Below, in pieces: positions 48,068-52,242 of a stretch of 64,000 bases of DNA. A model generated the notes under the pieces. The model worked only from the letters and a program-made list of their open reading frames with translations, was not told the origin of the DNA and did not search any database. Position 1 is the stretch's first letter; each line of letters opens with the position of its first letter. Source of the DNA: Acidobacteriota bacterium. GTDB lineage: Bacteria > Acidobacteriota > G020349885. The stretch is taken from positions 1,140,926 to 1,204,925 of the forward strand of contig CP070701.1 in NCBI GenBank assembly GCA_020349885.1, read 5' to 3'. Both the position numbers and the translations under genes were made by a program.

Positions 48068-49558
48068 GTGAAGCGCGCGCTGTGGATCGTTCTCACCCTG
48101 CTCATCGCGGTCGCGGCCCTGGAAGCCGCGCTCTGGGGCTTGGCTTTCTTGAGGCACAAGCCGCTCCGGACGCTCGAGGATTTCTCCTCGCACGCGCTGT
48201 GGCGGGAGATGCCCGAGGGCGCGGCCTTCGCCGTCCTCGGCTACGATGTCGCCGGGGCGCTTCCCCCCGATGAAACCCTTTGGCGGGGGATGGAGCTGCT
48301 CGCCGAGCAGGGGAATATCGCGCTCTCTCGCGAGGTCTTCGAGCGGAGGTACGCGCAGCTTAGGCCCATGCTCGGAGGCGAGGTGGCGTTCGCGCTCTAT
48401 CCGGGCGAGGGCGGGGAGGAGCGCCCGGCGTTCTGGCTCGCGGCGCGGCCGCGCCCGTCGGTCCGCTCGCTTTTCCGGCTGACGGAGCTTTGCACGCAGG
48501 CGTGGGCCCTCTGGAAGGCCGCCTTGTCGAAAAAGTCGCTGCCCGACAAAAGGCTTCCCGACGGCACGCCGGTTTACCTGGACTACCGGCGCGGCACGTT
48601 CTATGCGGCCGCCTTTCCCCCGCTTCAGAAGGGCGCGCGCGCCGGCGAGCCCCTTTTCGACGAGCAGGCGCGCGATGGCTGGCTGGCCGCTTTGGGGGAG
48701 GAGGGCGAAAGCGGCCGGGACATCTCGGGCGTCACCGCGGCCCGTTTCGGCGAGCAGCGGGCCTGGGGGATTTTTCACCTTCAGGCCGGGCGGCTCGAGT
48801 CCCGCTGGAGCGCGACGCTCGCCGAGGAGGAGGCCGCGCTTTGCCGGATAGCCGCGCGACCGTTTTCGCTTCCCCCCGAGGCCGAGGAGGAGGCCGCGCT
48901 TCTCGTCCAGCATGCGCTCTCGTTCGGCGTGCTCGATCCGGGCGATTTCGAGCACAATTTACCGCTCGACCTCGGGACGGCGCTCGACGCGGTCGCGGCG
49001 CTGCGCGCACTGTGCGTCTTCGCTCCCGAAGGAGGTGCGACGCTCCCCGGGACCGCCCTTTATTTCGTCCCGGAGCCCGCGAGGCAGAAAGAGCTTTCGG
49101 GATTCCTGAACTCGCTTCTATACCTTGGGACGTGGCTCGTGGAGGAGCAGAGCGGCGGCATTTTGTCTCCGGAGATTCGCCGGGAGAAGAGGGACGGCTT
49201 CACCGTGGCGAGCTTTTCGCTCGGGATGATCGAGCCGTGCTACGCCGAGCGCGAGGGGCTTATCGTCGCGTCGCTTGAGTGCGGCCGGCTCGATTCGCTT
49301 CTGGAGATTCCGCGCTCGCCCGCTCCGGCCTGGGAGCTCTTTCGCGTCGAACTCCGGGGCGCGCCGCTTTCGGAGAGCCTCCGCGCGCTCGAAGACCTGG
49401 CGGCGCTCGTGGGGCGCAAGGAATCGGTGCCCCCGGCCGTTCTCGAAGCGCTCGCCCGCATCGAGCACGCGAGCTTCGAAGTCGAGGCGCCTCCCGGCGA
49501 CGTTTCCCTGGATTATCTGACGGGACGGCTTTCGGTGGAATGGAACTCTTTCTTTTAG
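48068..49558 (+). CDS. Membrane-anchored protein of unknown function
   Basis: A 496-residue protein with an N-terminal anchor or signal (KRALWIVLTLLIAVAALEAAL, about residues 2-22) and a large soluble domain outside the membrane. The start of that domain (ALWREMPEGAAFAVLGYDVAG) and overall plan recall DUF3352-type proteins, with low confidence. No catalytic motif is recognised. GTG at 48068 begins two bases after the previous stop. Its last 19 bases overlap lpxB, so it is co-translated with lipid A synthesis. Confidence 0.75.
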   Translation: MKRALWIVLTLLIAVAALEAALWGLAFLRHKPLRTLEDFSSHALWREMPEGAAFAVLGYDVAGALPPDETLWRGMELLAEQGNIALSREVFERRYAQLRPMLGGEVAFALYPGEGGEERPAFWLAARPRPSVRSLFRLTELCTQAWALWKAALSKKSLPDKRLPDGTPVYLDYRRGTFYAAAFPPLQKGARAGEPLFDEQARDGWLAALGEEGESGRDISGVTAARFGEQRAWGIFHLQAGRLESRWSATLAEEEAALCRIAARPFSLPPEAEEEAALLVQHALSFGVLDPGDFEHNLPLDLGTALDAVAALRALCVFAPEGGATLPGTALYFVPEPARQKELSGFLNSLLYLGTWLVEEQSGGILSPEIRREKRDGFTVASFSLGMIEPCYAEREGLIVASLECGRLDSLLEIPRSPAPAWELFRVELRGAPLSESLRALEDLAALVGRKESVPPAVLEALARIEHASFEVEAPPGDVSLDYLTGRLSVEWNSFF

Positions 49559-50712
49559 CGGGCGAGGCCTCCGGGGACGCGCACGCGGCGAGCCTCTTGC
49601 GGGCCGTTCGGCAAATGCGCCCCGACGTGCGCGCCTTCGGCGTCGCGGGCGACCAGTGCGCCGCGCAGGGCTTCGAGGTACTCCACCACGCGCGCGACAT
49701 GGGCGTAGTAGGGCTCACGGAGGCTGTAAGAAAACTTCCGTTATATCGGAGGGTTCTTCAGGAGATGGCCGATGCGGTGGCCGCGAGGCGGCCCGACGGC
49801 GTCGTGCTGGTGGATTTTCCCGACTTCAACCTCCGCCTCGGGCGCGAGATACGGGTCCGCGCGCCCGACATCCCCATCGTGTATTTCATCAGCCCGCAGG
49901 TGTGGGCCTGGCGCCGGGGGCGCGTCCACGACATCGCGGCGTTCGCGCGGCGGGTGCTCGTGATTTTCCCGTTCGAGGAGGAGTTCTACCGCGACGCGGG
50001 CGTCGAGGCCGTCTACGTGGGCCATCCGCTTGTGGACGAGGCGCGCCCGACTGCCTCGCGTGAGGATTTTCTCGAGTCCGCCGGCCTGGACCCAGGAAGG
50101 CCCACGGTGGCCGTGCTTCCGGGCAGCCGCGAGAGCGAGGTGCGGCGCCACATCGAGGGAATGCTCGGCGCCGCGGCGCGCCTCGCGGAGGAGCGCCCCG
50201 AGATGCAGTTTGTCCTCTCCTCCGCCCCGACGCTCGAGCGCGGCTTTATCCCCGCTCACCCGGCATGGCGCCGGGCGGAGCGCCTGCGCATTGCCCTCTC
50301 CCGCGACTGCGTGTATAATGTTCTGAATGCGGCGGATGCGGCCATGGTGACGTCGGGAACGGCCACGGTGGAGGCGGCCTTGCTCGGGGTTCCCATGGTC
50401 GTGGTGTACGGCCTTTCGAGGCTGAGCTATTTTGTGGCGCGGCGAATTGTGGACGTTCCCTGGATTGCGATGGCCAACCTGCTCGCCGGGGAGGCGGTGG
50501 TGCCGGAGTTGATTCAGGAGAAATTTCGGGCGAGGCCGCTCGCCCGCGAGGTGCGCGCCATTTTGGAGGACTCGACACGGCGCGAAGTGATGCTGAAGGG
50601 ACTCGAAAAAGTGCGGAAAGCGCTCGGCGAATCGGGCGCGGCCCGGCGCGCAGCCGAGTGGGTGCTGCGCACGGTGGAGGAGGCCGCGGCCTCCGAGGGG
50701 AGGCGGCTGTGA
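49540..50712 (+). CDS. lpxB: Lipid-A-disaccharide synthase
   Basis: A GT19 glycosyltransferase that joins UDP-diacylglucosamine to lipid X on the inner membrane. The 390-residue product has LLAGEASGDAHAASLLRA, FISPQVWAWRRGRV, VGHPLVDE, LLPGSRESEV-like VLPGSRESEVRRH and TSGTATVEAALLGVPMVV. I chose ATG at 49540; the longer frame from 49279 lies inside the previous gene. The stop overlaps the next GTG (GTGA). Confidence 0.95.
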   Translation: MELFLLAGEASGDAHAASLLRAVRQMRPDVRAFGVAGDQCAAQGFEVLHHARDMGVVGLTEAVRKLPLYRRVLQEMADAVAARRPDGVVLVDFPDFNLRLGREIRVRAPDIPIVYFISPQVWAWRRGRVHDIAAFARRVLVIFPFEEEFYRDAGVEAVYVGHPLVDEARPTASREDFLESAGLDPGRPTVAVLPGSRESEVRRHIEGMLGAAARLAEERPEMQFVLSSAPTLERGFIPAHPAWRRAERLRIALSRDCVYNVLNAADAAMVTSGTATVEAALLGVPMVVVYGLSRLSYFVARRIVDVPWIAMANLLAGEAVVPELIQEKFRARPLAREVRAILEDSTRREVMLKGLEKVRKALGESGAARRAAEWVLRTVEEAAASEGRRL

Positions 50713-51543: not shown

Positions 51544-52193
51544 GTGCGAGACGCCCTCATACTCGCCGTCGTCCCCAGGATTGCGAGTGCATACATGCGC
51601 TTTTTGTACCGCTCGATGCGTCTTCGCAGCGAGGGCGCCGAGCGCATGGACGCGCTGCTCCGGGAGCGCAGGTCTTTCATCCTCGCGTTCTGGCACGCCC
51701 GCCTCTTTATTATGCGCTACGCCTACCGGGACAGGCCGGAGGGCATCACCACGCTCGTCAGCCGCCACCGGGACGGCGAGCTCATCGGCCGCACCATGGA
51801 GTGCTTCGGCCACAGGGTCCTCCGGGGCTCCAGCACGCGGGGCGGCGTGACGGCGCTGCGCGAGGTGGTGCGCGCGCTCCAGGGCGGCACGACCGTGGGC
51901 TTTACGCCCGACGGCCCGCGCGGGCCGCGCCACCGCGCGCAGCCGGGTGTCGTGCAGGCGGCCCGCTTGAGCGGGGCGCCGATTCTGCCCGCTTCCTTTT
52001 CCGCCTCAAAAAAAAAGTCTTCTCATCGTGGGACCGGTTTCTGTTGCCGTATCCGTTCTCGCGGGGACTCTTCGTTTACGGAGAGCCCATCCTCGTGCCG
52101 CGGGACGCGGGCGAGGCGCTCTTGGAGGAAAAGCGCGCCGCACTGGAGCGCGCGCTCAACGAGCTCACGGACTATGCGGACCGGAGCGTGTAG
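51544..52193 (+). CDS. DUF374 lysophospholipid acyltransferase-like gene, frameshifted at an A9 run
   Basis: The first 155 codons encode a DUF374 acyltransferase-like protein: FILAFWHARLFIMRYAY, LVSRHRDGELI, SSTRGGVTALREVVRAL and GFTPDGPRGPRH. After ILPASFSASKKK the reading frame leaves the family; the missing end (VFSSWDRFLLPYPFSRGLFV and on to DYADRSV) is in the -1 frame and stops at 52193. The switch point is AAAAAAAAA at 52008-52016. One added base or a -1 shift restores a 216-residue protein. Unshifted translation would end at 52227. GTG at 51544 has AGGAG 7 bases upstream. DUF374 proteins commonly neighbour lipid A genes. Confidence 0.78.
52011..52017 (+). other. A AAA AAG slippery heptamer in an A9 run
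   Basis: In the frame of the acyltransferase gene the codons read TCA AAA AAA AAG, so A AAA AAG has exactly the phase of the dnaX-type -1 slippery site. Slipping by one base leads directly into the GTC TTC frame that encodes the missing C-terminus. Transcript slippage on A9 or a base missing from the assembly would look the same. Confidence 0.6.
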
Positions 52194-52242
52194 TGAAGCG
52201 TCATGGGCGATGCGAGGCGCAGCCTAGGGAGCAGGAAAGACC

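Follow-up and report, generated by a model that had tools for sequence, protein, structure and literature searches.

Few cases of conserved recoding are known from non-mobile bacterial genes; they include prfB and dnaX. Bacterial RNA polymerase slips efficiently at runs of nine. In the dnaX gene of Thermus thermophilus (Larsen et al. 2000, as summarised in PMC1088944 and PMC5009743), a chromosomal housekeeping gene, RNA polymerase is described as adding extra A's at a run of nine sense-strand A's; there, the unslipped transcript gives the full-length protein and slippage leads to the short form. Slippage on A9 adds A's in diminishing proportion (PMC5009743), and in many genomes avoidance of A/T runs becomes evident at a length of nine (PMC1088944). 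In Citrobacter rodentium tssM1, with A11, and Shigella mxiE, with a run of U's, the template is out of frame and slippage restores the full-length product, which makes up about 20% in the case of tssM1 (PMC4256274). Both are isolated cases confined to one or few species. The dnaX gene of Escherichia coli provides a further model, that of a -1 frameshift at the heptamer A_AAA_AAG.

The LpxJ acyltransferases of Helicobacter, Campylobacter and Rickettsia (PMC6148475) are encoded in lipid A gene neighbourhoods and have a DUF374 domain with Trp-His, Asp, DGP Asp and SWD, the last two 40 residues apart. Replacement of W60, H61, D86, D132, W172 or D173 of Rickettsia typhi LpxJ by alanine abolishes activity, and a frameshift is nowhere mentioned for these enzymes (PMC6148475). 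The gene described here shares the domain, the residues, the spacing and the neighbourhood, and differs from them in being divided between two reading frames. It is located in a window, i.e. the whole stretch of DNA analysed, of 64,000 nucleotides from an Acidobacteriota bacterium, with the following features.

49540..50712, + strand: lpxB (lipid-A-disaccharide synthase), upstream; PF02684, E=6.4e-96
51544..52017, + strand: first part of the DUF374/LpxJ-like acyltransferase gene, in frame 0; 158 codons from a GTG start
52008..52016, + strand: A9 run, the putative slippage site; flanked by TC (codon TCA) on the 5' side and G on the 3' side
52011..52017, + strand: in-phase heptamer A_AAA_AAG, a possible ribosomal -1 site; next base varies in relatives
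52017..52193, + strand: -1 frame part, 58 codons and TAG (52191-52193); SWDRF...PFSR...YGEP, with homology to uninterrupted genes
52018..52227, + strand: frame-0 tail past the run, 69 codons and TAG (52225-52227); no homology
52029..52034, + strand: Trp-Asp codons TGG GAC, in the -1 frame only; equivalent to W172-D173 of Rickettsia LpxJ

The frame-0 part matches PF04028 (DUF374) with E=1.2e-28 and includes the motifs FWHAR (Trp-His), SRHRDGE and TPDGPRGP. Its start at GTG 51544 agrees with the N-terminus of an uninterrupted homologue, L084. Frame 0 is coherent up to the codons TCA AAA AAA AAG (52006-52017), where it reads ...PASFSASKKK, and then enters the non-homologous SSHRGTGFCC..., a tail that differs widely in length among relatives and is not conserved. 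From this point DUF374 homology is found only in the -1 frame, the translation of which (KKKVFSSWDRFLLPYPFSRGLFVYGEPILVPRD...) ends at the TAG at 52191-52193. On comparison with relatives, the joined 216-residue protein aligns with a single gene in two frames, residues 1-158 in one and 156-216 in the other. The sequence and the homology of both parts thus bear out the preliminary description of this DNA, which had placed an A9 at 52008-52016 between an intact frame 0 and a continuation of about 60 residues in the -1 frame; this C-terminus comprises 58 residues and is homologous to uninterrupted DUF374 genes.

The gene lies directly 3' of a nucleotidyltransferase-like gene, with lpxB a short distance upstream, and in Nitrospira lenta the gene order is lpxA-lpxI-Gfo/Idh-lpxB-ABC transporter-DUF374. 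A plasmid search returned no match. As judged by its sequence, the product is predicted to be an LpxJ-type (DUF374) late acyltransferase, with a probable role in lipid A synthesis suggested by gene context.

The Trp-Asp pair of the window gene is found 40 codons after the DGP Asp, the same distance as from D132 to W172 in Rickettsia LpxJ, and the pair (W161-D162) is invariant in the alignment with uninterrupted homologues. The complete catalytic set, consisting of Trp-His, the Asp of HRDGE, the DGP Asp and Trp-Asp, is obtained only by joining the two frames. The predicted structure of L084 (pLDDT 87.6) has the LPLAT acyltransferase fold, with PlsC, PatA and LpxM as best PDB matches (E about 4e-6, TM about 0.5). 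In this model the run corresponds to residues 154-156, and strands 165-167 and 172-177 and helix 189-213 lie after it. Since the Trp-Asp, the last core strands and the helix are encoded past the run, the unslipped frame-0 product should be inactive, and activity would depend on recoding. The earlier suggestion that the break could give two forms of the enzyme is therefore to be read with the caveat that residues shown to be essential in Rickettsia LpxJ have no counterpart in the short form.

The same -1 break was found at the same codon in six other genomes among 60 Acidobacteriota genomes, at runs of 9, 10 or 11 A's. When a GTDB genome collection was scanned for DUF374 genes carrying at least nine A's in the interval from DGPxGP to SWD, run-bearing loci were listed in many Nitrospira (including N. 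lenta), other Nitrospirota, Acidobacteria and Thermoanaerobaculia, and also in Syntrophorhabdus, Syntrophus and other Deltaproteobacteria. Two contigs titled Acidimicrobiia (L035 and L073) carry a Nitrospira-type lpxJ and are probably mis-binned. Among the matches listed, 131 loci had an A-run of at least six, and 110 of these were in the -1 arrangement, 20 in frame and one in the +1 arrangement. The last (L124, broken at A10) stands alone among the DUF374 genes found in having a +1 break, and is a close relative of a -1 gene, L050.

Unbiased surveys were conducted with only the distance between DGPxGP and SWD fixed (lengths 123-125, a length of 124 indicating the -1 frame) and no A-run demanded. 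In 396 Nitrospirota genomes, A9 or longer was present in all 114 length-124 DUF374 genes and in none of the 34 in-frame matches among those listed; this survey was tallied by eye, and a few hits of length 124 in unrelated DNA are attributed to chance. In 396 Acidobacteriota genomes, all 11 of the -1 genes among the matches listed had A9 or longer, as did 14 of 14 in 218 genomes of a third phylum, that of Syntrophorhabdus genome G398. In-frame genes of the third phylum had shorter runs, save for an in-frame A9 in G919, and in G856, which carries a near relative of the G919 gene, the run is interrupted. The three surveys combined therefore gave at least nine uninterrupted A's in 139 of 139 frame-broken DUF374 genes among the matches listed.

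Frame break and run length are strictly coupled. In all loci gathered, the -1 genes included 98 with A9, 24 with A10 and 3 with A11, and none with fewer than nine. In-frame genes included 72 with runs of 1-8, of which six were A7-A8, and a further 18 with at least A9, most of the latter having been fetched by the pattern that demanded A9. In Nitrospira the -1 break is near-universal among the matches listed, closed genomes included, and the single in-frame exception is a Nitrospira-type gene in G731, in which the run is broken to A6 and the frame is restored. A few in-frame genes retain A9-A11 (L084, L096, L061 and that in G919); hence, not every lineage requires the break. Parsimony on the tree required at least six state changes on well-supported branches, with deep and stable -1 clades, indicating that gain or loss of the break has happened repeatedly.

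Runs of this length are uncommon in the genomes concerned. A9/T9 or longer occurs at nine places in the 2.4 Mb window genome and A9/T9 at 4-6 per genome in Nitrospirota G455, G545, G610 and G677, and the only A9/T9 in the 3.8 Mb Nitrospira genome G396 is the lpxJ run itself. Given this rarity, recurrence of the break at an identical codon position in three phyla is not due to chance. The list of A9/T9 places also served as the search of the window genome for other slippage genes. One of these places (G000:C1:275525-275533; L188, minus strand) has an A9 shortly before the point at which the fabZ stop and the lpxA GTG start overlap; slippage at this A9 could fuse the two lipid A genes.

The codons of the run are frozen at synonymous positions. 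In 61 genes of the TCA AAA AAA AAn type, codon choice for TCA and for the AAA of the run was 100% invariant, versus a top-codon share of 29-82% for other conserved residues, single-codon Trp apart, and at another invariant Ser column TCG accounted for 63% and TCA for 3 of 59; most -1 loci in these statistics came via the A9-demanding pattern, and the run-free surveys of three phyla serve as the control. KKK occupied W-7 to W-5 in 113 of 113 unique -1 genes versus 2 of 65 in-frame homologues without a run, in which the AAA:AAG ratio at these positions was 28:28. As Lys-Lys-Lys is rare in the latter, the Lys run is not a requirement of the protein. The codon freeze and this comparison thus indicate retention at the nucleotide level beyond protein need: the run is maintained as DNA and not as protein. 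In near relatives, third positions accounted for 76% of differences upstream of the run (frame 0) and 62% downstream (-1 frame). This bias on both sides shows purifying selection on the two parts as a single protein.

Three explanations had been offered for the break: programmed -1 frameshifting at a dnaX-type heptamer, RNA-polymerase slippage on A9, or a base lost in the assembly. Recoding is supported, with RNA-polymerase slippage the likelier form, and a lost base is effectively excluded as a general explanation, because the same break occurs across phyla and in closed genomes. For the window genome taken singly, loss of one A from a true A10 by base-calling or assembly error is highly improbable. 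The genome is a single contig, possibly from long reads, and a second gene of the same assembly is broken at T9, two points in favour of such an error; however, A9/T9 within other genes of this genome (L189/L195 and L196) stays in frame, assemblies of Pelagibacteraceae and Ignavibacteriales keep their A9 genes in frame, and many independent assemblies from three phyla, closed genomes among them, have the same break in lpxJ. The breadth of the break excludes assembly error for the family as a whole. The second broken gene encodes a ResB-like cytochrome c biogenesis protein (G000:C1:1324800-1324808; L193, minus strand) and lies outside the window; in it a -1 shift at T9 follows RRPRV and leads into FFLPPGLL. 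Relatives gave no support for that break, with few matches there to separate recoding, error and decay. Decay of the DUF374 gene to a pseudogene would account for the broken template frame, and is extremely unlikely in view of the codon-position bias and the invariance of catalytic residues before and after the break, seen genus-wide; the bias refutes it for the family. The proposal of phase variation, in which replication slippage between A9 and A10 would switch the enzyme off and on, has in its favour that the homopolymer lies in a surface-lipid gene and that A10 or A11 is in frame in some lineages. Such a switch should show mixed states, whereas in Nitrospirota the Nitrospira-type genes are nearly all A9 and broken among the matches listed, and in the sole revertant the run is destroyed. 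The near-uniform A9 across Nitrospira genomes, with no mixture of on and off states, does not fit a phase-variable gene, and phase variation is very improbable.

A -1 ribosomal frameshift, in which tRNA-Lys slips back one base on A_AAA_AAG or A_AAA_AAA with a stimulator absent or undetected, is a weightier alternative and is nevertheless unlikely. The window gene has A_AAA_AAG in phase, as in E. coli dnaX, and a run of nine A's always holds an in-phase A_AAA_AAA, which is a point against slippage; poly-A is described as slippery to ribosomes too (PMC4363877). The shift is in one direction only, 110:1 among the matches listed, and the rule of Antonov et al. 2013 assigns such clusters to ribosomal frameshifting. 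The same ratio is predicted by slippage, since A's are added in diminishing proportion and templates one A short would be rescued best. Seven A's, or A6G, would suffice for a ribosome, yet no -1 gene found has fewer than nine, and in six genes a run of A7-A8 is found in frame. The nucleotide that follows the run varies (C in 75, G in 30 and T in 5 of the 110 -1 loci among the matches listed), as does the phase of the run, the commonest phase giving A_AAA_AAC. Thus, the part of the preliminary description that noted A_AAA_AAG in phase holds for the window gene, but it is the run of at least nine A's, and not the heptamer, that is conserved. In-frame genes most often have Arg at W-7, and its codon AGA would keep the heptamer, yet -1 genes never have Arg there. 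Neither Shine-Dalgarno-like enrichment upstream of the run nor a stem-loop downstream was found (mean z -0.21 and -0.02, respectively); in this too the locus differs from E. coli dnaX. The strict minimum of nine A's, the varying next base and the lack of stimulators together favour slippage over ribosomal frameshifting.

Accordingly, RNA-polymerase slippage is the preferred reading, in keeping with the run of at least nine A's at the break in all -1 genes among the matches listed. The sequence comparisons indicate that lpxJ is probably an intact gene expressed by recoding, in which slippage adds one A. The DNA template would be one base short at the run of nine A's, and RNA polymerase would slip there and add A's in part of the transcripts. 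In transcripts with one extra A, the C-terminal 58 residues would come into frame, and ordinary translation would yield the 216-residue enzyme. Unslipped transcripts would give a truncated protein without the Trp-Asp, the last core strands and the helix, expected to be inactive. The run would thus act as an obligatory, dose-lowering gate. The resemblance to Thermus dnaX, as far as that gene is described in the sources cited above, lies in the nine sense-strand A's, the chromosomal setting and the kind of slippage; unlike in that gene, slippage in lpxJ would be needed for the functional protein. In this respect lpxJ resembles tssM1 and mxiE, from which it differs in that the break is kept throughout most of one genus and in three or more phyla. 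In the taxa studied here, dnaX offered little as a slippage control, a run of at least seven being absent in seven of eight loci. A Syntrophorhabdus dnaX (L269, position 2925) has a sense-strand A9 about 18 codons before the stop, where slippage would alter the last residues only.

A run of this kind should often gain an A by mutation, and such a gain would restore the frame. From the rarity of this gain in Nitrospira, full expression would seem to be disfavoured; that this escape is almost never taken implies that low, slippage-limited levels of LpxJ may be beneficial. Lock-in, i.e. loss of the gene on interruption of the run, would explain persistence of the run, but not why A10 is not taken. 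It is possible, if somewhat less likely than not, that obligatory slippage has been selected in at least three phyla as a fixed, possibly condition-sensitive, dose-setter for lipid A acylation.

No paper on recoding of DUF374/LpxJ was found in the open-licence literature. The slippage mechanism is known; the gene family and the breadth of conservation appear to be new to that literature. If the proposed reading is correct, lpxJ would be among the most widely conserved chromosomal cases of recoding, in a gene for an outer-membrane lipid, and its working protein would not be encoded in frame by the template. Annotation pipelines risk calling such genes pseudogenes, and metabolic reconstructions of Nitrospira and others would then wrongly miss the enzyme. 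The finding also allows a test of why selection retains a gene that depends on error in place of one with an added base.
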